In this document: positions 209 to 13,053 of the stretch, piece after piece
Numbering within the stretch: position 1 is the first letter of the stretch
Layout of the letters: each line of letters starts with the position of its first letter
Origin: a bacterium
GTDB lineage: Bacteria > Ratteibacteria > UBA8468 > B48-G9 > JAFGKM01
DNA length: 13,200 nucleotides
Reading direction: 5' to 3'
Assembly: GCA_021160565.1 (NCBI GenBank)
Contig: JAGHCG010000224.1
Coordinates: 1-13,200, forward strand
The notes under the pieces: generated by a model
What the model was told of the DNA's origin: nothing
Seen by the model: the letters and a program-made list of their open reading frames with translations, nothing else
Database searches by the model: none
Program-made: the position numbers and the translations under genes

Positions 209-679
209 TTACCAGCGATAATGAGCAAATGCTCTATTTGCTTCAGCCATTTTGTGAGTATCTTCCTTCTTCTTCACACTTGGACCTTCACCTCTTGACG
301 CTTCAAGAAGTTCATCAACCAGCCTTTCTGCCATGGGTTTTCCTTTTCTGTTTCTTGCTGATTCAACAATCCATCTTATAGCAAGAGATAAACTTCTATG
401 GGGAGGAACTTCAATTGGTATCTGATAAGTGGCTCCTCCCACTCTTCTTGGTCTTACTTCAAGTTTTGGTTTAACATTGTTGAGTGCTTTTTTAAAAACA
501 GTAAGAGGGTCCTGATTTGTTTTTTCTTTTATAATATCCATTGCAGTATAAAAAATCCTGTAAGCAAGTGTCTTTTTACCATCCCACATCAATTTATTTA
601 CGAATTTCGCCACCTCATAGTCGTTATATCTCGGGTCTCCTTTTATTTTTCTTCTTTCAGCCCTTTTTCTTCTCGGCAT
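209..679 (-). CDS. rpsG: 30S ribosomal protein S7
   Basis: S7 nucleates assembly of the 30S head by binding the 3' major domain of 16S rRNA, and it contacts the E-site tRNA. The protein is 156 residues, the usual length. It starts [10 protein letters not shown], and the conserved segments are in order: DPRYND (about 15-20), [12 protein letters not shown], the [13 protein letters not shown] beta-hairpin region (about 76-88), [10 protein letters not shown], and [13 protein letters not shown], ending near AFAHYRW. The rpsL stop lies only 3 nt upstream. The likely Shine-Dalgarno is the G run in the last rpsL codons (GGGGGT), so translation is probably coupled to rpsL. In E. coli S7 represses its own operon through the rpsL-rpsG intergenic region; with a 3-nt gap that structure cannot exist in the same form here. 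Confidence 0.98.
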
Positions 680-682
680 TTT

Positions 683-1075
683 TTAACCCCCTGCTTTCTT
701 TTCTTCTTTCTGTTTTTTGGTTCCATATTTTGAACGGGATTTTTTCCTTCCCTCAACACCACCTGCGTCAAGTGTCCCTCTCACAATATGATATTTCACC
801 CCAGGTAAATCTTTAACTCTTCCTCCTCTCACCAGAACTATTGAGTGTTCCTGTAAATTATGGCCAATTCCAGGAATATATGCTATTACTTCTTTTCCAT
901 TTGTTAATCTCACTTTTGCTATCTTTCTTAAAGCAGAATTTGGTTTTTTTGGTGTCATTGTCTTAACATAAAGACATACCCCCCTCTTTTGAGGATTTCT
1001 CTCAAGAGCAGTTGATTTTGATTTTTTAACTTTTGGCCTTCTCTTTTTCCTTACCAACTGATTAATTGTAGGCAT
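683..1075 (-). CDS. rpsL: 30S ribosomal protein S12
   Basis: S12 sits at the decoding centre of the 30S subunit and controls tRNA selection accuracy. The protein is 130 residues: [10 protein letters not shown], then PQKRGVC (about 28-34), [11 protein letters not shown] (about 41-51), GHNLQEHS (about 71-78), [14 protein letters not shown] (about 83-96) and a basic C-terminal tail. The lysines whose mutation gives streptomycin resistance (in PKKPNS and RVKDLPG) are both wild type. Asp89, the residue methylthiolated by RimO in E. coli, is present. The start ATG has a near-perfect AAGGAGGT Shine-Dalgarno (1079-1086). The gene begins 16 nt after the rpoBC stop, so it is probably co-transcribed with RNA polymerase. 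The L7Ae-like gene often found here in Firmicutes is absent. Confidence 0.98.
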
Positions 1076-1091: not shown

Positions 1092-4000
1092 TTAACTCCT
1101 TTCAGTTGCTGTATATTCATAACTCTCTTCTTCCTTTTCCTTTTCAACTGATACAAAAAATCCTGTTCCTGCTGGTATTAATCTACCCAGAATTACATTT
1201 TCTTTCAACCCTTCAAGATAATCCTCCTGTCCTAAAATTGCAGCATTTGTGAGAACCTTCATTGTCTCCTGGAATGAGGCAGCAGAGATAAAGCTTTCAC
1301 TTGAAAGAGCAACTCTTGTAATTCCAAGTACAAGAGGTTTGTATGTTGCTGGTTTCTTCCCCTTTGGCAATGATTCATTTATCTTCTGAATTTTTACCCT
1401 GCTTATTTCCTCTCCTTCAAGTAAATATGTATCTCCAGGGTCTTCAACTCTTACCTTTGATAGCATCTGTCTTATTATAATCTCAATATGCTTATCATTT
1501 ATGGTAACTCCTTCAACTCTGTAAACTTTTTGAATCTCATTCAGAAGATATTCCTGAACTTTCTTTTCTCCCTGAATTCTCAGTATATCTTTAAGAACAA
1601 CTGGACCATCAGTAAGTTTTGTTCCTGCTATAACATAATCTCCTGTAGAAACATTGAGATGTTTTCCATAAGGAATTGTATACTCTTTCACTGTTTGAGT
1701 TTCTTTATTGGTTATTCTTACCTTTCTTCCGCCTTTCTCAAATGGTAAAACTTCAACTTCACCATCAATTTCACTCAAAATTGCTGGATTTTTGGGAGTC
1801 CTTGCTTCAAACAATTCTGAAACTCTTGGCAATCCACCTGTGATATCCTGAACCCTTCCCACGGTTCTTGGTGTTTTAGCAAGAATATCTCCCGGATACA
1901 CTTTATCTCCTATTTCCACCATTATATGAGCACCTTCTGGAATATGGTAATCCCCTACTATTTCACCTTTTTCATTTTTCAACACTATCTGAGGATCCAT
2001 CTCCTCTTTATGAGGAATTATAACTTTTCTCTTTATTCCTGTAGTTGTATCAACCTCTTCTTTTGCGGTTTTTCCAACCTCTATATCTTTATATTCAACA
2101 ACACCTTCTGCATCAGCAATTATTGGTGTGGAATAAGGATCCCAGTGGGCAATAACCTGACCAGGTTTTACCTCCTCTCCATCTTCAACTTCAACAATTG
2201 CTCCTACTCTCAATGTATATTTTTCAATCTCTCTTCCTCTTTCATCAAGAAGAGCAATATTTCCTTCTCTCTGAATTACAACATTCTTTCCTTCTTTATT
2301 TTTTGTAACTTTGAGGTTTTCAAGATATTTTATTTTTCCAGTATTTCTGACTTTAAGTGAAGAAGGACCTATACTTCTTGATGCTGTTCCCCCTGTATGG
2401 AATGTTCTCAATGTAAGCTGTGTTCCTGGTTCTCCTATTGACTGTGCTGCTATAACCCCAACCGCTTCCCCAACGTTCACTATTTTCTTCTTTGAAAGGT
2501 CCCATCCATAACATTTTGCACATACACCTTTTTCTGATTTACAGGTAAGAACTGAACGAATTCTTATTCTATTTATTCCCGCATCAACTATTTCCTGTGC
2601 TTTCTTTTCATCTATAACTTCTCCCGCTTTAACAATAATTTTATCTGTTACAATATCCACAACATTATCCAGAGCAACTCTTCCAATAATTCTTTCTTTA
2701 AATGGGATAATTTCTTCATCTCCTTCAACAAGTGCACTTACAAAAACTCCTTCAAGAGTTCCACAATCTTCCTCTGTGACAATTACTGAATGAGCAACAT
2801 CAACAAGTCTTCTGCTCAAATATCCCGCATCAGATGTCTTCAAAGCTGTATCAACAAGTCCTTTTCTTCCACCGTGGACAGAAATGAAGTATTCAAGAAG
2901 CGATAGCCCCTCTCTGAAATTTGAAATAACAGGTGTTTCAATTATTTCTCCTATTCCACCTGTAACTTTCTTTGTTGGCCTTATCATTAAACCTCTCATT
3001 CCCATCAACTGATTTGCCTGTGTTTTATTCCCTCTTGCTCCCGACCTCACCATAAGGAAAATTGGATTTATTCTGAATGGATTGTATGAAGTATCTTTTT
3101 CTATTGTTTCCATCACTATATCAGCAAGTTCATTTGTAGTGGATGTCCAGATGTCAATTATTCTGTTATATCTTTCTCCATCAGAGATAATTCCCTTTTC
3201 ATAATTTTTCTCTATTCTTTCAACTTCTTTCTTTGCCTGTGCTATCAGTTTTTCTTTTATTTCAGGAACTTTAAGGTCATCTATTCCTATAGTTATTCCA
3301 CCAATTGTTGAATAATAAAATCCAAGGTCTTTTATAGCATCAAGGAATTTCACTGTCTCTCCATAACTCCATCTATCAAATATTTCTTTTATCAGAGTCT
3401 CAAATCCAGAAGTATCATAGAACTCATTTTTATAAGGGATACCAGGTGGAATTACTTCATTGAATATAATTCTTCCAACAGTGGTTGTTATAATCTGCCC
3501 TATTTCATTCTTAACCTTTATGGGCCTATGAAGTTCCAGTTCTCCCATATAGTGGAGATATTTCGCCTCATCAAAACTTGAAAGTATTTTTGGATATTCC
3601 TCTTCTTCACTCATATATGTCAGATAAGAACATCCCATAACTATATCTCTGGTGGGTGTGACTATTGGTTTCCCACTTGCAGGAGATAAAATATGAGTTG
3701 TTGCCTGCATCAAAAGTTCCGCTTCAAGACGGGCTTCAGGAGTAAGGGGTAAGTGAATACTCATTGTATCACCATCAAAATCAGCATTGTAAGCAGGACA
3801 GACAAGAGGATGTATTTTAATTACATTTCCTTCAATCAATCTCGGATGGAATGCCTGAATACTCAATCTATGTAAAGTTGGTTGCCTGTTGAGAAATACA
3901 GGATAATTTTTACTCACTTCTTCAAGAATTTCCCATACTTCAGGTCTATTTTCTCTGATAGCCCGTTTAGCACTTCCTAAGGTATGGAAATATTCTCTCT

Positions 4001-7000
4001 TTCTCAACTCTCTCAAAACAAATGGACCAAAAAGTTCAAGAGCCATTTCTTTTGGAATTCCACACTCATGGAGTCTCAGTTCAGGACCAACAACTATAAC
4101 TGCTCTCCCTGAATAATCAACTCTCTTTCCAAGGAGATTCTGTCTGAACCTTCCCTGTTTTCCTCTCAATGCATCAGCAAGTGACTTAAGAGGTCTTCTT
4201 CCTTTTCCAAGAACAGGTGCTCCATGTCTACCATTATCCATCAAAGCATCAACTGCCTCCTGAAGCATTCTCTTTTCATTTCTCACAATTATATCTGGAG
4301 CCTGAAGTTTTATAAGTTTCTTCAATCTGTTATTTCTATTGATAACTCTCTGATAAAGGTCATTCAAATCAGAAGCAACAAATCTTCCACCATCAAGTGG
4401 AAGAAGAGGTCTTAAATCTGGAGGTATAACAGGAATTATGTTTGTAACCATATACTCGGGTTTAACCTGTGTTTTTATCAATCCCTGAACCATTCTCAAT
4501 TTTTTAATTAAATTCCTTCTCGCTCCATAATCTTTTCCTTTCTTCCTTCTCAATGCCTGTTTTATCTCCTCTTCCATTTTATGAAGGTCTATTCTCTTTA
4601 AAAGCTCCTGAATTGCCTCTGCTCCAATTCCTGCTTTAAACTTATTTCCATATTTTTCAAGGTTTTCATGATACTCTTTTTCAGAAAGGAGCATTTTGGG
4701 TTTTAAAGGAGTATTTCCTGGGTCAATAACTATATATCTTTCATAATAAAGAACCATTTCAAGTTCACTCTGAGACATATCAAGTAACAATCCCATCCAG
4801 TTGGCAGTACTTTTGAAAAGCCATACATAAGAGACAGGGGTGGCAAGTTCAATATGTCCCATTCTCTCTCTTCTAACCCTTGATGTTGTAACTTCAACTC
4901 CACATCTATCACATATAATTCCTTTATATCTTAATTTTTTGTATTTTCCGCAGGAACACTCAAAATCTCTTGTCGGTCCAAATATCTTTTCACAGAAAAG
5001 ACCATCTCTTTCTGGCTTTAAGGTTCTGTAATTCAAAGTTTCTGCTTTTTTAACTTCTCCATGGCTCCAGGATCTCATTACCATTGGAGATGCTATTTTT
5101 ATTGTTACAACATCCCTTACTTTTCCATTTTCCCTTTTCTTTTCAACTCTTAAATCAAAACCAAGCCCCTGCAATTCCTTCTTCAAAACTTTAAACGATT
5201 CTGGAATATTATCTGGTCTGTAATCTATTCCCTTTGCTATACTTTCATACATCTTCTTTCTACCTTCAGTATCATCACTCTTCACTGTAAGCATTTCTCT
5301 TAAAGTATGAGCCGCTCCATATCCTTCAAGAGCCCAAACTTCCATTTCTCCAAATCTCTGTCCACCAAACTGTGCCTTTCCACCAAGAGGTTGCTGGGTA
5401 ATGAGAGAATAGGAACCTGTACATCTGGCATGAATTTTATCATCAGCAAGGTGAATGAGTTTCATCATATAAATATATCCAACAGTAACTGGCTGAGCAA
5501 AAGGGAGACCTGTTTGACCATCATAAACAATTGTTTTTCCACTTTCAGGGAGTCCTGCCTGTTTTAAAAGATTTTTGATTTCAAGTTCCTTTATACTTTC
5601 AAAAATTGGTGTTTCCATCTTATATCCGAGAACTTTCAATGCCCAGCCAAGATGAGTTTCAAGAATCTGTCCAATATTCATTCTGGATGGAACACCAAGA
5701 GGATTTAAAACTATATCAACAGGGGTACCATCTTCAAGATATGGCATATCTTCTTCTGGTAAAATTTTTGAAACAACTCCTTTATTCCCATGACGACCAC
5801 TCATTTTATCACCAACGGAGATTTTCTTTTTAATAGCAACTTCCACCACAACCTTGCATATAACATCCATATCAAGTTCAGGTCCTTTTTTAATTTTCAA
5901 TTCTTCATCTTTAAGTTGTTTTTCAAGTTTCTTCAATTCATTTTTTCCTATCTCCACAGTCTTTGATATCACTTCTTTCCATTCATCAGGAACCTTATTG
6001 ATAAATTTATCCCATGTATCAGGATTTGAAGTAATTCTGGCTTTTATTCTGTGTTTGCTGGCAAATTCTTTCAACTGTTCACTTATAACTTTCTTGACAA
6101 TTTTCTCCTTCTGTGCATAGTTATTTCTCAACTCTTTAATCTGCTTATCTATTTCTTCCTGAGGAATATCTTCTCTTCTAACATATTTCCTCACATTTAC
6201 AACCACTCCTCTTATTCCCGGTGGGACTTTAAGGGAAGTATTCTGTACATCTTTTGCTTTTTCTCCAAATATCACTCTCAAAAGTTTTTCTTCAGGTGTA
6301 AGTTCTGACTCTCCTCTTGGAGTAACTTTTCCAACAAGTATGTCATCAGGCTGAACTTCTGCTCCAATTCTCACAATACCATCATCTCCAAGATTTCTCA
6401 TTCTCTCTTCAGGGACATTTGGAAGGTCACTGGTTATTTCTTCTTTTCCAAGTTCGGTCTCTCTTGCTTCCACTTCAAATTCTTTTATGTGTATGGAAGT
6501 GAAAACATCATCTTTAACAAGTCTTTCACTTATAAGAACAGCGTCTTCGTAGTTATATCCGTGCCAGGGCATAAAAGCAACCAGAAGATTCTTTCCAAGA
6601 GCAATTTCTCCTTCTTTTGAAACACACGGACCATCTGTGATTATCTGTCCTTTCTTTACTTTATCTCCAACATCCACAACTGGTCTTTGATGGAAACATG
6701 TATCCTGATTGGTTCTGTTAAATCTCTTAAGGTAATACACATCTTTTTCTTCCCATGGGAAAAGACCGGGATTATCTCTCTTAACAACTATTTTTTCTCC
6801 ATCAACATATTCAACAACTCCGTCATTTTTTGCCTTTATAACAACTCCACTATCTCTTACAACATATTTTTCCATACCGGTTTTGACAAGTGGAGATTCT
6901 GATTTTACAAGAGGAACAGATTGCCTCTGCATATTTGAACCCATAAGGGCTCTATTGGAATCATCATGTTCAAGGAATGGAATGAGAGAAGTACTTACAC

Positions 7001-8624
7001 TTACTATCTGGGTTGGAGAAACACCCACATAATCAACTTCTTCTGGAGGAACTTCTTTAAACAATCCTCCTTTAACTCTCACAGTGACCGGGTTGGCAAG
7101 AATCTTTCCTGTTTTTTCATCAACTGGAATACCTGGTGGAGCAATATTATAATTTTCTTCTTTATCTGCTGATAGATATTCTATTTTATCTGTTACTTTC
7201 CCATTTTCAACTTTATAGTACGGGGTGATTAAAAAGCCAAGATTATCAATTCTGGAATGAACCGCAAGTGAATTTATAAGTCCAATATTTGCTCCTTCAG
7301 GAGTTTCAATAGGACATATCTTTCCAAAATGAGTATAGTGAACATCTCTTACTTCAAACCCAGCCCTTTTTCTTTCTTTTACTCCTCCTTCTCCAACAGC
7401 AGTTAGTCTTCTTTTATGAGTTATTTCAGCAAGTGGGTTTGTTTTATCAAGGAATTGAGATAACTGGTTTCTGGCAAAAAATTCATTAACAACTGTCATA
7501 AAAACTTTTCCATTTATAAATTCCTGCACACTCAATGTTGCAGTGGCGCTTTTATCCACAAGAGCCATTCTTTCTTTACTGTATCTGGCAAGTCGCAAAA
7601 GCCCTTCATAAACGTGTTCTTTTATAATTTCTGCTGAAACTCTCACTCTTTTATTTCCAAGATGGTCAATATCTTCTGTTGTTCCTTCTCCCTTTTCAAT
7701 TAAATTGATAAGATATCTGATTGTTTCCACTATATCCTGTTTCGTTAAATGTCTCTCTTTTATGTCAAGCCCAAGTTTTTTATTAATCTGAGCTCTTCCC
7801 GCTTCAGAAAGGTCATAAGTTTCAGAAGTGAAAAACATAGCATTGAAAAATCTTGCAGCTTCTCTGATTATAACTGGATATCCAGGTCTCAATTCAGCAT
7901 ATATTGTTTTTAAAGCTTCCTCTCTATCCTTTACACTATCTCTGGCAAGAGTTGCTCTTATAATTGAATCAGGGGGTATTTCTTCAGGATTTTTGTAAAA
8001 CAGAGATATTATATCCTCTTCTTTATAACCAAGTGCTTTCAGAAATACTGTACCAAGAATTTTTCTTTTCCCAAGATAAATATGGAGAACATTATGGGGG
8101 TCAACATGAAATTCCATCCATAATCCACGGTAAGGATATATTTTTGCTGAATAAAGTGTTTTCTGACCAATTGTTTCTTCTTCTTTGAAATATACTCCAG
8201 GACATCTCAATAACTGATTAACAACAACTCTTTCAACTCCATTTATTATAAAAGAACCATTTTCTGTCATGAGGGGAATACTTCCTATATAAACATCCTG
8301 TTCTTTCACAGATTTTATTTTGAATTCTCCTGTTTTTTCGTTCTTTTCTCTTACAACAAGGCGAAGTTTAACTTTCAACCTTGCTTCATATGTTGCTTTC
8401 TTCTCTATACATTCTTCAACTGTATTAACAGGATCTTCAAGAGTATAATGAACATATTCAAGTCTCAGTATTCCATCATCACTTTCCACAGGAAAAACTT
8501 TTCTAAAAACTCCTTCAAGTCCCTGTACTTTTCTCTTTTCCGGCGGTATATCCTTTTGAAGGAACTCCTTATAAGGTTCCTTCTGGATATAAAGCAAATC
8601 CGGAACTTCAATTTTTTTAACCAT
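1092..8624 (-). CDS. rpoBC: Fused RNA polymerase beta-beta' subunit
   Basis: This single 2510-residue frame encodes both large catalytic subunits of RNA polymerase. Beta spans about 1-1168. It contains the rifampicin region (NQLSQFLDKTNP, H403), CPIETPEG, and GDKMSGRHGNKG with K940 and K948 (E. coli K1065/K1073), and ends with the FGGQRFGEMEVWALE region. Beta' starts at about 1169 with KIASPMVMRSWSHGEVKK. Zinc site 1 is C1223/C1225/C1238/C1241. It continues with the LRGKQGRFRQNLLGKRVDYS switch region, catalytic NADFDGD at 1613-1619, and the bridge helix around 1912-1945. Zinc site 2 is formed by DCGT plus the CKSEKGVCAKC cluster, and the trigger loop GTQLTLRTFHTGG contains H2076. It ends after GLKENVILGRLIPAGTG. 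No stop or credible restart separates the halves. The start has GAGGGG 8 nt upstream; the beta N terminus is about 18 residues shorter than in E. coli. Sigma, alpha and omega are not in the window. Confidence 0.97.
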   Translation of the reverse strand: MVKKIEVPDLLYIQKEPYKEFLQKDIPPEKRKVQGLEGVFRKVFPVESDDGILRLEYVHYTLEDPVNTVEECIEKKATYEARLKVKLRLVVREKNEKTGEFKIKSVKEQDVYIGSIPLMTENGSFIINGVERVVVNQLLRCPGVYFKEEETIGQKTLYSAKIYPYRGLWMEFHVDPHNVLHIYLGKRKILGTVFLKALGYKEEDIISLFYKNPEEIPPDSIIRATLARDSVKDREEALKTIYAELRPGYPVIIREAARFFNAMFFTSETYDLSEAGRAQINKKLGLDIKERHLTKQDIVETIRYLINLIEKGEGTTEDIDHLGNKRVRVSAEIIKEHVYEGLLRLARYSKERMALVDKSATATLSVQEFINGKVFMTVVNEFFARNQLSQFLDKTNPLAEITHKRRLTAVGEGGVKERKRAGFEVRDVHYTHFGKICPIETPEGANIGLINSLAVHSRIDNLGFLITPYYKVENGKVTDKIEYLSADKEENYNIAPPGIPVDEKTGKILANPVTVRVKGGLFKEVPPEEVDYVGVSPTQIVSVSTSLIPFLEHDDSNRALMGSNMQRQSVPLVKSESPLVKTGMEKYVVRDSGVVIKAKNDGVVEYVDGEKIVVKRDNPGLFPWEEKDVYYLKRFNRTNQDTCFHQRPVVDVGDKVKKGQIITDGPCVSKEGEIALGKNLLVAFMPWHGYNYEDAVLISERLVKDDVFTSIHIKEFEVEARETELGKEEITSDLPNVPEERMRNLGDDGIVRIGAEVQPDDILVGKVTPRGESELTPEEKLLRVIFGEKAKDVQNTSLKVPPGIRGVVVNVRKYVRREDIPQEEIDKQIKELRNNYAQKEKIVKKVISEQLKEFASKHRIKARITSNPDTWDKFINKVPDEWKEVISKTVEIGKNELKKLEKQLKDEELKIKKGPELDMDVICKVVVEVAIKKKISVGDKMSGRHGNKGVVSKILPEEDMPYLEDGTPVDIVLNPLGVPSRMNIGQILETHLGWALKVLGYKMETPIFESIKELEIKNLLKQAGLPESGKTIVYDGQTGLPFAQPVTVGYIYMMKLIHLADDKIHARCTGSYSLITQQPLGGKAQFGGQRFGEMEVWALEGYGAAHTLREMLTVKSDDTEGRKKMYESIAKGIDYRPDNIPESFKVLKKELQGLGFDLRVEKKRENGKVRDVVTIKIASPMVMRSWSHGEVKKAETLNYRTLKPERDGLFCEKIFGPTRDFECSCGKYKKLRYKGIICDRCGVEVTTSRVRRERMGHIELATPVSYVWLFKSTANWMGLLLDMSQSELEMVLYYERYIVIDPGNTPLKPKMLLSEKEYHENLEKYGNKFKAGIGAEAIQELLKRIDLHKMEEEIKQALRRKKGKDYGARRNLIKKLRMVQGLIKTQVKPEYMVTNIIPVIPPDLRPLLPLDGGRFVASDLNDLYQRVINRNNRLKKLIKLQAPDIIVRNEKRMLQEAVDALMDNGRHGAPVLGKGRRPLKSLADALRGKQGRFRQNLLGKRVDYSGRAVIVVGPELRLHECGIPKEMALELFGPFVLRELRKREYFHTLGSAKRAIRENRPEVWEILEEVSKNYPVFLNRQPTLHRLSIQAFHPRLIEGNVIKIHPLVCPAYNADFDGDTMSIHLPLTPEARLEAELLMQATTHILSPASGKPIVTPTRDIVMGCSYLTYMSEEEEYPKILSSFDEAKYLHYMGELELHRPIKVKNEIGQIITTTVGRIIFNEVIPPGIPYKNEFYDTSGFETLIKEIFDRWSYGETVKFLDAIKDLGFYYSTIGGITIGIDDLKVPEIKEKLIAQAKKEVERIEKNYEKGIISDGERYNRIIDIWTSTTNELADIVMETIEKDTSYNPFRINPIFLMVRSGARGNKTQANQLMGMRGLMIRPTKKVTGGIGEIIETPVISNFREGLSLLEYFISVHGGRKGLVDTALKTSDAGYLSRRLVDVAHSVIVTEEDCGTLEGVFVSALVEGDEEIIPFKERIIGRVALDNVVDIVTDKIIVKAGEVIDEKKAQEIVDAGINRIRIRSVLTCKSEKGVCAKCYGWDLSKKKIVNVGEAVGVIAAQSIGEPGTQLTLRTFHTGGTASRSIGPSSLKVRNTGKIKYLENLKVTKNKEGKNVVIQREGNIALLDERGREIEKYTLRVGAIVEVEDGEEVKPGQVIAHWDPYSTPIIADAEGVVEYKDIEVGKTAKEEVDTTTGIKRKVIIPHKEEMDPQIVLKNEKGEIVGDYHIPEGAHIMVEIGDKVYPGDILAKTPRTVGRVQDITGGLPRVSELFEARTPKNPAILSEIDGEVEVLPFEKGGRKVRITNKETQTVKEYTIPYGKHLNVSTGDYVIAGTKLTDGPVVLKDILRIQGEKKVQEYLLNEIQKVYRVEGVTINDKHIEIIIRQMLSKVRVEDPGDTYLLEGEEISRVKIQKINESLPKGKKPATYKPLVLGITRVALSSESFISAASFQETMKVLTNAAILGQEDYLEGLKENVILGRLIPAGTGFFVSVEKEKEEESYEYTATERS
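5105..5140 (-). other. Beta/beta' fusion junction with out-of-frame ATG behind an SD-like motif
   Basis: Beta ends around GLGFDLRVEKKRENGK and beta' begins at about Val1169 (VRDVVTIKIASP), so there is essentially no linker. In another frame the junction contains AAAAGGG followed by AAA and ATG (ATG at 5128-5126). That ATG reads Met-Glu-Lys-stop. If one base were added after AAAAG it would instead run into the beta' frame as MEK-x-RDVVTIKIASP, a plausible start for a free beta'. This suggests, but does not prove, that the fusion arose by loss of one base at a former rpoB/rpoC overlap. Confidence 0.5.
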
Positions 8625-8629
8625 TTTTT

Positions 8630-8722
8630 CTACCCCTCTATTAATTTTATTTTCAGGAAGTGAACGTAATTAAACCAATCTTTCTTTGCTTTTGGTTGAA
8701 AAATGGGATTTGAAATTTTCAT
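8630..8722 (-). CDS. Possible 30-residue small ORF between rplL and rpoBC
   Basis: An ATG overlaps the rplL stop as TAATG and opens a 30-codon frame (begins [11 protein letters not shown], ends LKIKLIEG) that stops with TAG inside the space between the rpoBC Shine-Dalgarno and its ATG. It fills the whole rplL-rpoBC gap and would suit termination-reinitiation from rplL. Against it: there is no clear SD, it is short, no family is recognised, and in AT-rich DNA such a frame can occur by chance. It could be a leader peptide, or noise in a regulatory spacer. Confidence 0.2.
   Translation of the reverse strand: MKISNPIFQPKAKKDWFNYVHFLKIKLIEG
8673..8697 (-). promoter_or_regulatory. Weak hairpin in the rplL-rpoBC spacer
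   Basis: AACCAA (minus strand, 8697-8692) can pair with TTGGTT (8678-8673) across a 13-nt A/G-rich loop. In E. coli this spacer holds an attenuator and an RNase III site, so the position is suggestive. The 6-bp stem has few G:C pairs and lacks a clean U tract, so it is not a convincing terminator. Confidence 0.25.
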
Positions 8723-9120
8723 TATTTTATTTCAACTTCAGCACCAATCGCCTCAAGTTTCTTCTTAATTTCTTCTGCTTCTTCCCTACTGACTTTTTCC
8801 TTTATTGGCTTGGGTACAGATTCCACCAGTTCTTTTGCTTCTTTCAATCCAAGATTTGTAATTGCTCTTACTTCCTTAATTGCCTGAATTTTATTACTAC
8901 CATAACTCTTCAAAATAACATCAAAAGTAGTTTTTTCTTCTTTCTGTTCTTCTGTCGTACCTGTTGCTGGCGCTCCTGCAACCATACCTACAGGTGCCAT
9001 CATTCCTTCAACTCCAAACTTTTCCTCAAGTTTTTTTGCAAGTTCTGACAATTCAATAGCAGAAAGTTTTTCAATTTTTTCAACTATTTCATCAAGAACA
9101 TTTTTTTCAACCTTTTCCAT
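8722..9120 (-). CDS. rplL: 50S ribosomal protein L7/L12
   Basis: L7/L12 forms the flexible multi-copy stalk of the large subunit and recruits translational GTPases (EF-Tu, EF-G, IF2), both of which are encoded in this cluster. The protein has 132 residues: an N-terminal dimerisation helix domain (about 1-37, [20 protein letters not shown]), an Ala/Gly/Thr/Pro hinge (about 42-55, [15 protein letters not shown]), and the C-terminal factor-binding domain (about 65-132, [21 protein letters not shown] then [19 protein letters not shown]). The start is fixed by an AAGGAGA Shine-Dalgarno (9127-9133) lying inside rplJ, whose last 14 nt this gene overlaps. The stalk needs several copies of L12 per L10, so this SD is probably what lifts L12 output over L10. 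A 97-nt spacer separates it from rpoBC. Confidence 0.98.
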
Positions 9121-9652
9121 TTTCCCTCTCCTTTTTTTCTTTTATCTGATTTATCACATTTACCAACTTCATTGCTGGGAATTTTATTGAATTAACAACT
9201 CTCATAATTGGCATTTTTAAATAAGAAACCACACTTACTTTTATTTCATTTATTCCCGGAAGTTTTCCTATTTCTTCAATATAATCAGGTTGTATAATTT
9301 CTCCTCTTAAAATTCCACCTTTAATTTCAATTTTTCCGCTTTCTTTCCTGAAATCAATTAAACTTTTCACAAGAGATATTTCATCATCTTTTTTTGTCCA
9401 CGCTAAAATCATTGAGCCATCGAGAAATTTACATGCCTCATCCAGACTTAAATTTTTAAAAGCAATTTCCATAAGGGTATTTTTCACTACTTTCAAATTC
9501 CCTTCTTTTTTCTTTACTTCCTGTCTCAACTTCTGCATCTCTGGAACAGAAAGATTTCTGAAACTTGCTAAAATATTTATTTTACTACTTTTCATTTCTT
9601 CTGTCAAGGTCTTAACAACCTCCTCCTTTTTCTTTCTATCCATTCTTTTCAT
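9107..9652 (-). CDS. rplJ: 50S ribosomal protein L10
   Basis: L10 anchors the L7/L12 dimers to 23S rRNA and forms the base of the stalk. The protein is 181 residues. Its N-terminal rRNA-binding domain includes [22 protein letters not shown] (about 28-49) and [13 protein letters not shown] (about 53-65), followed by GSMILAW and [10 protein letters not shown]-terminal helix (about 160-178, rich in K/E) would bind L12 dimers. Two in-frame ATGs lie 9 nt apart (MKRMDRK). The first is preferred because GGAG sits 7 nt upstream of it (9660-9663). The rplA stop is only 13 nt away, leaving no room for the long L10-binding leader usual before rplJ. The 3' end overlaps rplL by 14 nt. Confidence 0.97.
9127..9133 (-). 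promoter_or_regulatory. Shine-Dalgarno of rplL inside the rplJ coding sequence
   Basis: AAGGAGA ends 6 nt before the rplL ATG and lies within the last codons of rplJ. Together with the 14-nt ORF overlap it implies coupled but independently initiated translation of L12. Confidence 0.7.
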
Positions 9653-9665
9653 TCTTTCACTCCAT

Positions 9666-10370
9666 TTATCTTAAATCCTGTAATAACTTTGCTGGATTAA
9701 GTTTCAAAGATGGAGACATCGTTAAGGAAATAGAAATTGTACGGATATATGTTCCTTTTGCTGCTGGTGGTTTTGCACTTACTATTGCTGAAAGAGCTGC
9801 AAGAATATTTTCTTTCAGTTGTTCTGATGAAAAAGAAACCTTTCCCACAGGAAGGTGAATATTTCCATCTCTATCCATTTTAAAATTAATTCTTCCTTTT
9901 TGAAGTTCTTTCACAACACTTTCAACATCATTTGTTACAGTACCTGTTTTTGGATTTGGCATCAATCCCCTTGGACCAAGAATTTTTCCAAGTGGAGCAA
10001 CAATTTTCATCATATCAGGAGTGGCAACAACACTGTCAAAATCCAGCCATCCATTTTTTATCTTTTCAGCAAGTTCTGCTCCTCCGACATAATCAGCACC
10101 TGCATTTTTTGCTTTCTCTACATTCTCACCACTCGCAAAAACAAGAATTTTGACCTTTTTCCCTGTCCCATGGGGAAGAATTACAGTTCCTCTCACCGGT
10201 TGCTGTAATTTTTTTGGGTCAATTCCAAGTTTAACAGAAAGTTCAACTGTTTCATCAAATTTTGTTGAATGAAGTCCTTTTAAAATTTCTATCGCCTCAT
10301 CCAGTTCATATATTCTGTTTCTTTCCACCTTTTCCAGAAGAGCAACATACCTTCTTGACCTTTTACTCAT
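9666..10370 (-). CDS. rplA: 50S ribosomal protein L1
   Basis: L1 forms the mobile L1 stalk on 23S rRNA, moves with the E-site tRNA, and in many bacteria represses the rplK-rplA mRNA. The protein is 234 residues, the normal length. It starts MSKRSRRYVALLEKV, with the domain I segment FDETVELSVKLGIDPKK (about 38-54), QPVRGTVILPHGTGK, then domain II with VFASGENVEKAKNAGADYVGG, DSVVATPDMM, and the LGKILGPRGLMPNPKTGTV signature (about 127-145). It returns to domain I with GRINFKMDRDGNIHLPVGKVSF. The Shine-Dalgarno TAAGGAGG overlaps the rplK stop, and the two genes are 9 nt apart, so translation is probably coupled. Confidence 0.98.
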   Translation of the reverse strand: MSKRSRRYVALLEKVERNRIYELDEAIEILKGLHSTKFDETVELSVKLGIDPKKLQQPVRGTVILPHGTGKKVKILVFASGENVEKAKNAGADYVGGAELAEKIKNGWLDFDSVVATPDMMKIVAPLGKILGPRGLMPNPKTGTVTNDVESVVKELQKGRINFKMDRDGNIHLPVGKVSFSSEQLKENILAALSAIVSAKPPAAKGTYIRTISISLTMSPSLKLNPAKLLQDLR

Positions 10371-10379
10371 TTTTCCTCC

Positions 10380-10805
10380 TTAATCCACTATTTCAACTCC
10401 CATACTCCTTGCAGAACCTTCCACTATTTTCATTGCCTTTTCCAAATCATCTGTATTCAAATCCGGCATTTTAATTTTTGCTATTTCTTCAAGTTGTTTT
10501 CTTGTAATTTTCCCAACCTTTTCTCTATTTGGAACAGATGAACCTTTTACAATATTTGCCGCCTTTTTTATAAGTTCAGAAGTTGGGGGTGTTTTTATAA
10601 TAAAATCAAAACTTCTATCCTCATAAATGGTAAGAACCACAGGAATAGTACCTTCTTTTCCTTTTGTTGCATCATTAAATGCTTTACAAAACTCCATTAT
10701 ATTAACTCCATGTTGTCCAAGGGCAGGTCCAACTGGTGGGGCAGGAGTTGCCTGTCCTGCTGGTATCTGCAACTTAACAACTGCTTTTACTGGTTTATCT
10801 CCCAT
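10380..10805 (-). CDS. rplK: 50S ribosomal protein L11
   Basis: L11 binds the GTPase-associated centre of 23S rRNA, where EF-G and EF-Tu act, and is the contact point for stringent factor and thiopeptide antibiotics. The protein is 141 residues. The N-terminal domain has [30 protein letters not shown] (about 10-39), including the Pro-rich segment that is the thiopeptide site. The C-terminal rRNA-binding domain has [12 protein letters not shown] (about 87-98) and [19 protein letters not shown], ending [10 protein letters not shown]. It begins 15 nt after the nusG stop, with CGGAG about 10 nt upstream of the ATG. Sequence and length are ordinary. Confidence 0.98.
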
Positions 10806-10845
10806 TTTTATTTCTCCGTTTTATATTTTTTCCACCTGCCAGTAA
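10787..10845 (-). promoter_or_regulatory. Inverted repeat enclosing the rplK start
   Basis: A perfect 7-bp inverted repeat (TTACTGG near the 3' end of nusG at 10845-10839, CCAGTAA in the fifth to seventh codons of rplK at 10793-10787) would place the rplK Shine-Dalgarno and ATG in a 45-nt loop. The location is where L1-dependent control of rplK-rplA would act, but the arms are coding sequence and I cannot see the L1-site signature, so chance is quite possible. Confidence 0.2.
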
Positions 10846-11351
10846 TCAAGTTCAAGTAAAGTTGCTCTTCCAAAAATAGAAACACTTACTTTCAATCTCT
10901 CTTTATCAGGATAAACTTCCTCCACCACCCCCGTGAAATTGACAAATGGACCATCTGTTATTTCCACCTTATCTCCTTTTAAAAATTCAACCTTAGGAGT
11001 AGGTTTACTCTTTCTTTCCTCAATTTCTTTAAGAATTTTGTCCACTTCTTCATCCTGCAATGGCACAGGTTTTTTACTGGCACCGAGAAAACCAAGTACT
11101 CCTGATGTAGTTCTGATAGCATGCCATACCACTTCATTATCAGCACTATCTTCAATTTCAATCAGCATATACCCTGGCCAGAATCTTCTACTTTTTATCT
11201 TTTTCTCCCCTTTACTGACTTCACTCACCTCTTCTTTTGGAATAATAACCTGCTTAATTTTCTCTCTACCCAGGGATGGATTATTTAAAAGTAATTGTTT
11301 TATTTTTTCTTCCTGCCCTGTTCTAACATGTAAAATATACCATTTACTCAT
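10821..11351 (-). CDS. nusG: Transcription elongation/antitermination factor NusG
   Basis: NusG binds the beta' clamp helices and beta gate loop of RNA polymerase, here both parts of one polypeptide, and links it to Rho, or to the ribosome through S10. The protein has 176 residues with the usual two domains. The N-terminal NGN domain (about 1-115) starts SKWYILHVRTGQEEKI and includes SRRFWPGYMLIEIE (about 54-67) and the TSGVLGFLG segment (about 86-94). The C-terminal KOW domain (about 122-176) has GDKVEITDGPFVNFTGVVEEV and ends LELDYWQVEKI. Its AGGTGA Shine-Dalgarno overlaps the secE stop, and the two genes are 3 nt apart. There are no insertions; this is an ordinary housekeeping NusG rather than an operon-specific RfaH-type paralogue. 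Confidence 0.98.
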   Translation of the reverse strand: MSKWYILHVRTGQEEKIKQLLLNNPSLGREKIKQVIIPKEEVSEVSKGEKKIKSRRFWPGYMLIEIEDSADNEVVWHAIRTTSGVLGFLGASKKPVPLQDEEVDKILKEIEERKSKPTPKVEFLKGDKVEITDGPFVNFTGVVEEVYPDKERLKVSVSIFGRATLLELDYWQVEKI

Positions 11352-11686: not shown

Positions 11687-11836
11687 TTATTTTCCTTCTT
11701 TATGAAGAGTATGTTTCCTGCAAGTTGGACAAAACTTATTCAATTCTATTTTCTTTTTACCTGTCTTTTTATTCTTAGTTGTATAGTAATTTTTATTCCC
11801 ACAATTTGAACACACCAGGGAAACAACTTCTCTCAT
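11687..11836 (-). CDS. rpmG: 50S ribosomal protein L33, zinc-binding form
   Basis: L33 is a small protein near the E site of the large subunit. Translating the minus strand from the ATG at 11836 gives 49 residues beginning [20 protein letters not shown] and ending [15 protein letters not shown]. Two CxxC pairs (C9/C12 and C36/C39) form the zinc ribbon of the C+ type of L33. The length (about 50) and the central basic [15 protein letters not shown] segment fit the family. Its AAGGAG Shine-Dalgarno (11847-11852) overlaps the tuf stop codon, which supports the start and co-transcription with tuf. The promoter for tRNA-Trp lies just downstream, and no convincing terminator separates them. Confidence 0.96.
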
Positions 11837-11850
11837 TTTTTAAAAACTCC

Positions 11851-13053
11851 TTATTCAATAATTTCAGTCACAGCTCCTGCTCCAACTGTCCTTCCTCCTT
11901 CTCTAATAGCAAATCTCTGTCCTTTTTCAAGAGCAACAGGATAAATAAGCTGCACTTCCATTTCAATATTATCTCCTGGCATCACCATTTCCACGCCCTC
12001 TGGAAGTTTTATCTCACCAGTAACATCTGTTGTTCTTATATAAAACTGAGGTCTGTATCCAGTAAAGAATGGGGTGTGTCTTCCGCCTTCTTCCTTTTTC
12101 AAAACGTAAACCTGTGCTTTAAAACGGGTATGTGGAGTAATACTTCCTGGAGCAGCGACTACCATTCCTCTCTCCACTTCATCCTTTTCAATTCCTCTTA
12201 AAAGAAGCCCAACATTATCTCCAGCAACACCTTCGTCAAGTTCTTTTCTGAACATTTCTACTCCTGTAACAACTGTCTTTTTAATATCATGGGAAAGCCC
12301 TATAATTTCCACATTATCTCCAACTTTAATTTTCCCTCTTTCAATTCTTCCAGTTGCCACTGTTCCTCTCCCTGTAATGGAAAATACATCTTCAACTGCC
12401 AAAAGAAATGGCTGGTCAACTGGTCTTGGTGGTGTTGGAATGTATTCATCTATAGCATCAAGTAACTGCCATATTGGACCACACTTATCACATTCTCTAC
12501 TTCCACATCCACACTCCAGAGCCTGTAGAGCACTACCTTTTATAATAGGAATTTCATCTCCGGGAAAATCATATTTACTCAACAATTCCCTAATTTCCAG
12601 TTCCACAAGTTCTACAAGTTCTTGGTCTTCCATCTGGTCCATTTTATTCATGAAAACAACTATAGCAGGAACTTCAACCTGTCTGGCAAGAAGAATATGC
12701 TCTCTTGTCTGAGGCATTGGACCATCTGGTGCACTCACAACAAGAATTGCTCCATCCATCTGAGCAGCACCTGTAATCATATTTTTGATATAGTCAGCAT
12801 GTCCAGGACAGTCAATATGAGCATAGTGTCTTTTATCTGTTTCATACTCTATATGAGCAATGTTTATTGTCAATCCTCTTTCTTTTTCCTCTGGTGCTTT
12901 ATCTATTTCTTCATATTTTGTAAATTTTGCTTTATTCTGCTTTTCAAGAACCATCGTTATCGCACTTGTAAGAGTTGTTTTCCCATGGTCCACATGGCCT
13001 ATGGTTCCCACATTCACATGTGGCTTAGTCCTCACAAACTTCTCTTTCGCCAT
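11851..13053 (-). CDS. tuf: Elongation factor Tu with a four-cysteine insertion
   Basis: EF-Tu is the GTPase that delivers aminoacyl-tRNA to the ribosomal A site. The protein is 400 residues, slightly longer than E. coli EF-Tu. GTPase motifs are in order: G1 GHVDHGKT (about 19-26), switch [16 protein letters not shown] (about 58-72), G3 DCPGHADY (about 81-88), G4 NKMD (about 136-139) and G5 SAL (about 174-176). Domains 2 and 3 follow, with [13 protein letters not shown], the [13 protein letters not shown] segment, and C-terminal [15 protein letters not shown]. Directly after SALQALE come four cysteines, C181, C183, C188 and C191 (CxCx4CxxC), in a region about 5 residues longer than in E. coli. 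An AAGGAGG Shine-Dalgarno (13060-13066) fixes the start. It sits downstream of tRNA-Thr, as tufB does in E. coli. Confidence 0.98.

Follow-up and report, generated by a model that had tools for sequence, protein, structure and literature searches.

RNA polymerase β and β′ are encoded as one polypeptide in the window, the stretch of 13,200 nucleotides of DNA analysed here, where positions 1092 to 8624 hold complete RpoB and RpoC in a single frame, and this fusion is a trait of the whole candidate phylum Ratteibacteria and not of one odd genome. The division of the polymerase catalytic core into β and β′ is nearly universal in bacteria, and the kind of fusion itself is already known from Helicobacter and Wolinella. 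As far as the open-licence literature shows, what is new is its fixation across a phylum, the marked brevity of its junction, and how many other families have fused subunits; none of the matches listed from that literature addresses, judged by its title, the opening of its abstract, or its hit terms, the fusion of rpoB and rpoC in Ratteibacteria, Omnitrophota, or NPL-UPA2, and the searched terms do not occur in the body of the genome paper on NPL-UPA2 (PMC6305446). The best explanation of the whole, in which we have high confidence, is that the fusion would predate the divergence of the sampled phylum members, would have originated by loss of a stop codon, and would yield a single chain of approximately 280 kDa whose two moieties meet in a short hairpin. 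The fused gene comprises the following features:

1092..8624, minus strand: rpoBC, fused RNA polymerase β–β′ subunit, a single open reading frame of 2,510 amino acids identified with Pfam and NCBIfam.
5124..8624, minus strand: β (RpoB) moiety, approximately residues 1–1167, with TIGR02013 reaching residue 1160 and the domains Rpb2_1 to Rpb2_7.
1092..5123, minus strand: β′ (RpoC) moiety, approximately residues 1168–2510 and the stop codon, with TIGR02386 from residue 1173 and the domains Rpb1_1 to Rpb1_5.
5094..5159, minus strand: junction, residues 1156–1177 (FDLRVEKKRE-NG-KVRDVVTIKI), a beta hairpin in two low-confidence AlphaFold2 models.
8633..8638, minus strand: Shine-Dalgarno-like GAGGGG, recognised in the sequence, 8 nt 5' of the rpoBC ATG.

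In the list of open reading frames, the gene is a frame of 2,510 codons that opens with an ATG, and its Pfam domains run in the order Rpb2 1, 2, 3, 45, 6, and 7, followed by Rpb1 1–5, the final β domain (Rpb2_7) covering residues 1087–1162 and the first β′ domain (Rpb1_1) residues 1173–1497. The first-pass annotation had described one uninterrupted frame with the landmarks of β and β′, and indeed both RpoB and RpoC are complete and score above the curated cut-offs, with 1557.5 bits against 801.15 for the rpoB equivalog TIGR02013, whose best stretch ends at residue 1160, and 1649.4 bits against 963.5 for the rpoC equivalog TIGR02386, whose best stretch begins at residue 1173. These two ends bound the join within approximately residues 1161–1172, with which the position first proposed, 1168/1169, is consistent. 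A natural β–β′ fusion is recognised by one uninterrupted rpoB–rpoC frame conserved in relatives, and the window gene has both properties. In the window's genome, a draft of 265 contigs that is 78% complete, PF04997 has one match.

The gene is flanked by the usual rpoBC neighbours, which are tuf, rpmG, tRNA-Trp, secE, nusG, rplK, rplA, rplJ, and rplL upstream and rpsL and rpsG downstream; the ribosomal L proteins, secE, and rpmG were named by inspection:

209..679, minus strand: rpsG (S7), above the TIGR01029 cut-off.
683..1075, minus strand: rpsL (S12), the downstream neighbour, above the TIGR00981 cut-off.
8722..9120, minus strand: rplL (ribosomal protein L7/L12), the upstream neighbour, an open reading frame named by inspection.
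9107..9652, minus strand: rplJ (L10), an open reading frame named from inspection and gene order.
9666..10370, minus strand: rplA (L1), named in the same way.
10380..10805, minus strand: rplK (L11), named in the same way.
10821..11351, minus strand: nusG, above the TIGR00922 cut-off.
11687..11836, minus strand: rpmG (L33)-like frame of 49 amino acids with four cysteines, by inspection, between tuf and tRNA-Trp.

As a separate observation, EF-Tu (11851..13053, minus strand) carries a short cysteine-rich stretch of 11 residues, possibly a metal site, where the best match among solved structures (5w75_A) has no cysteine.

Fused β–β′ is known from Wolbachia as well, and two curated models describe such proteins, NF007172, which we take to be the Helicobacter-type RpoBC, and NF011417/PRK14844, presumably the Wolbachia-type RpoBC. 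The window gene lies below the cut-offs of both, with 2556.3 against 5372 bits for NF007172 and 2429.9 against 4632 bits for NF011417. It shares with the RpoBC of Wolbachia the β–β′ order in a single chain, while differing in that NF011417 score, and with the RpoBC of Helicobacter/Wolinella the succession of β and β′ in one polypeptide from one gene. However, the Helicobacter/Wolinella proteins are larger (approximately 2,880–2,900 against 2,510 amino acids), as had been remarked from the outset, they have a longer junction (58–64 against 45–49 residues in Ratteibacteria), and they form a separate clade. In quick trees of β′ (104 rows, 20 of them Ratteibacteria), of both moieties jointly (95 rows, 18), and of β (95 rows, 18), Ratteibacteria appear as one clade with a support of 100, apart from Helicobacter, and the window gene does not group with Helicobacter in either the β or the β′ tree, the check that the first-pass annotation had recommended. 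Membership of the Helicobacter type is rejected by the NF007172 score together with the different clade in all three trees, and the initial impression of a poorly studied lineage outside Helicobacter is borne out. In the joint tree, which includes no named Wolbachia sequence, the fused protein P0073 pairs with the unfused Rickettsiales locus L074, distant from the window. The RpoBC of NPL-UPA2 bacterium Unc8 (P0086) is similar in size, with 2,461 amino acids, and is also fused in the DNA (L230 of G341, whose linker sequence is identical to that of P0086), but it belongs to another group in the joint tree and has a longer linker than that of Ratteibacteria.

On a tree of 53 rows, at least 10 changes between the fused and unfused states are required, and the Omnitrophota fusions, which are nested among lineages with separate genes, are most simply interpreted as gains. 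Since the trees are quick ones and the groups were named after tree inspection, the AU values, given for two of seven groupings on the 95 rows and for six groupings (two of them new) on the 53 rows, are indicative. On the 53 rows, they reject the union of the 28 fused supergroup rows in one clade (p 3e-116) and the joining of Ratteibacteria to the Omnitrophota fusions (p 8e-8) or to groups B–E together (p 0.009), but not their joining to C+D+E (p 0.089), to E (p 0.17), or to B (p 0.14). Thus, the proposal that the window carries an independent fusion is supported with respect to Helicobacter, by the trees, and to the Omnitrophota fusions, but not with respect to the NPL-UPA2-like and other deep groups (p 0.089–0.17). 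One old fusion could be common to Ratteibacteria, the NPL-UPA2-like lineage, and other deep fused families, with later re-splitting in some relatives, a scenario that we consider possible but on balance improbable. The three groupings left standing by the AU values and the poor resolution of the deep branches speak for it, as do the 95-row trees in which Ratteibacteria are constrained to group with the fused group C or D, which outscore the free quick search by 13.7 (p 0.68) and 13.2 (p 0.73) log units, respectively; because these constrained trees scored higher, the free 95-row tree must have been incompletely searched. Nevertheless, such a common ancestry has to accommodate the three rejected groupings, the 10 changes of state needed on the tree, and linker lengths that vary between groups.

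A junction search for carriers of the same fusion, another of the checks initially advised, retrieved fused proteins, since 120 of the 120 listed homologues (the best 120 of 7,997, selected by similarity to the fused junction) carry β and β′ in one protein. Among 386 sampled genomes, of which 351 lie outside the phylum, at least 12 genomes from nine other families show a junction match without a stop, a count that is a lower bound and comes from a search model itself built on fusions. To be counted as fused, a genome needed either a stop-free match across the junction or a translation of its DNA. Open-frame length as the sole test of fusion was rejected, as frames can read through stops and both G413 and G275, which looked fused with open frames of 2780 and 2512 amino acids, respectively, have separate genes. 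The outside fusions checked in DNA lie in one frame in 11 of 11 cases, the contig of G351 being cut at both ends, and one of the outside fusions, G317, groups with Helicobacter in the joint tree, while another is that of G341, the genome with the linker of P0086. Beyond Ratteibacteria, fusions are present in NPL-UPA2 and in additional unnamed families, and only rarely among Omnitrophota. In the Omnitrophica-labelled phylum of L073, where 226 of the 237 sampled genomes matched, G257, checked in DNA, is the only fused genome among the matches listed, and in at least 39 other genomes a single frame that contains at least one stop runs across the junction. Among contigs of named genomes, four of the best 80 of at least 598 matches, a list dominated by separate rpoC, have the junction in the β frame, namely L051 (the same place as G034) and three Helicobacter. 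Some JGI records name such proteins β–β′ (P0012 among others), so automatic annotation has already met them.

Several unusual loci were encountered in the same material. P0101 and P0106 are fused RpoBC proteins of only approximately 2,200 amino acids on a long branch, and P0106 is 50% identical to the rpoB–rpoC region of G476, whose genome measures 600 kb and whose frame contains a single TAA. L234 and L238 (G314 and G459) are a fused pair of families that branch outside the Omnitrophota–Ratteibacteria group and, therefore, likely represent another separate fusion. In L078 (5656–10014, labelled Omnitrophota), rpoC lies in two frames that meet near 7,560, which is a frameshift or an assembly error. 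Moreover, many TGA codons inside the rpoB/rpoC frames of G519 (contig 1, 740738–748246) suggest that TGA may be read as an amino acid there.

The Ratteibacteria junction is the shortest measured. From the β motif PESF to the β′ motif GEV, it spans 45–49 residues in every one of the 29 phylum loci, including the window's own, against 58–64 residues in 27 of the 27 listed fused proteins of more than 2,850 amino acids and a median of 60 (48–83) for the sum of the two tails in Omnitrophota with separate genes (29 scored of 30 loci), in agreement with the early description of the two moieties as joined with essentially no linker. Both AlphaFold2 models place strands at residues 1156–1165 and 1168–1177 around a two-residue turn, N1166–G1167, with low confidence (mean pLDDT of 48.8 and 50.9, and approximately 55–66 in the junction blocks). 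If these models are right, the end strand of β would pair with the first strand of β′, and the fusion would only close the hairpin. In the 18 phylum loci whose linker has the window's length, third codon positions are the most frequent differences from the window and synonymous changes predominate in the flanks on both sides, whereas the linker itself shows 193 nonsynonymous against 92 synonymous changed codons. The linker thus evolves fast, and its exact sequence is under no strong constraint.

Two proteins might still be made from the fused gene, either by internal initiation near the junction or by proteolytic cleavage, and 10 of the 29 loci do have one or more in-frame junction start codons preceded by a short purine-rich match. 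The positions of these codons are not conserved, however, and no internal start is shared across the 29 loci, one of which (L032) has no ATG, GTG, or TTG at all from PESF to GEV. In the window, none of the four such codons between the two motifs has a Shine-Dalgarno match, and initiation at the ATGs of residues 1181 and 1183 would lose the N-terminal strand of β′. No promoter-like or terminator-like sites were found at 4800–5500, in a weak test in which shuffled sequences yield only 1.7 and 0.5. The production of two proteins is, thus, very unlikely, and a single β–β′ chain remains the preferred reading.

Of the 35 genomes that represent the window's phylum, the one containing the window among them, 31 have a match to the rpoC N-terminal domain, which was not found in four drafts (G001, G013, G014, and G026). 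In 30 of these 31 genomes the junction is open without a stop, and in the remaining one it is ended by a contig edge. Loci were obtained for 30 genomes, and direct translation is open across the junction in 29 of them, with no stop within the junction in any of the 29, the window's own included; the other locus, L033 (G019), runs off its contig 37 residues short of the motif, and in the 31st genome, G010, the match extends across the junction and meets no stop. Although the window belongs to a draft genome, a sequencing or assembly error near 5120 that deleted a stop or shifted the frame is refuted by these relatives, by 19 database proteins of the Ratteibacteria clade with the same open junction, and by linker lengths that differ among the 29 loci by whole codons only, and none of these loci carries the extra or missing base that, according to the first-pass annotation, might restore separate rpoB and rpoC. 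The fusion can be assigned to the phylum as a whole because P0053, labelled Candidatus Ratteibacteria bacterium, is 95–96% identical to the G029 and G033 loci of the window's class. The lineage takes its name here from this single label, Candidatus Ratteibacteria being listed at NCBI as a phylum; other proteins in the clade are labelled Candidatus Omnitrophica, Elusimicrobia, or simply bacterium.

As regards its origin, the fusion in Ratteibacteria likely arose, by analogy with related lineages, when rpoB and rpoC, lying close together, were joined in frame. In Omnitrophota with separate genes, the median spacing is -1 nt and 28 of 29 pairs lie within 60 nt (29 scored of 30 loci, which are the best-scoring ones and not a random draw). 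In L198 and L199, the rpoC ATG directly follows the rpoB stop, in frame. The fused P0051 is much like the sequence of G128/L242 minus the stop and groups with these loci in the joint tree, L199 and L242 being from the same genome (G128); loss of the stop in such an adjacent in-frame pair would give a fusion like P0051. The rpoB and rpoC genes of Campylobacter are said to overlap, as reportedly described by Zakharova et al. in 1999. The overlapping or adjacent genes of Campylobacter and Omnitrophota share the tight spacing but encode two separate proteins, and such spacing is the likely precursor state. In Ratteibacteria, two closely spaced genes would have lost the intervening stop and joined in phase, and the merger would have preceded the divergence of the sampled members of the phylum. 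The C-terminal strand of β and the N-terminal strand of β′ would have been retained as a short hairpin, approximately a dozen residues under the tail sum elsewhere.

From one start, a single β–β′ chain of approximately 280 kDa would then be made, which would assemble on the α dimer as core polymerase, with β and β′ always 1:1 and in cis. In the available parts of the source, the active site of the H. pylori polymerase is described as lying on one chain, and an engineered E. coli β–β′ fusion assembles into a working polymerase (PMC1750930, the latter citing others). The engineered protein is alike in its tethered large subunit, but it is artificial. The one-chain large subunit of Ratteibacteria would therefore be expected to assemble in the usual manner, with β and β′ in cis.

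A broader reading, to which we give a little less than an even chance, is that fusion of the two subunits is recurrent and sometimes fixed, with a hot spot centred on Omnitrophota, NPL-UPA2, and Ratteibacteria, that the close packing of the two genes leaves many genomes a single stop codon short of it, and that it may have become obligatory in Ratteibacteria because the chain ends were trimmed to a closed two-residue hairpin turn. The natural fusion of Helicobacter/Wolinella (PMC1557499 and PMC9696931, in the parts available) has served as a rare genetic event in classification (PMC1557499), a use that is weakened by a fusion fixed across a phylum and by the other fused families. Within its own lineage, the fusion cleanly marks a candidate phylum with conflicting public labels, and the comparison of fused and separate sister lineages makes the reason for the normal separation of the two chains testable.
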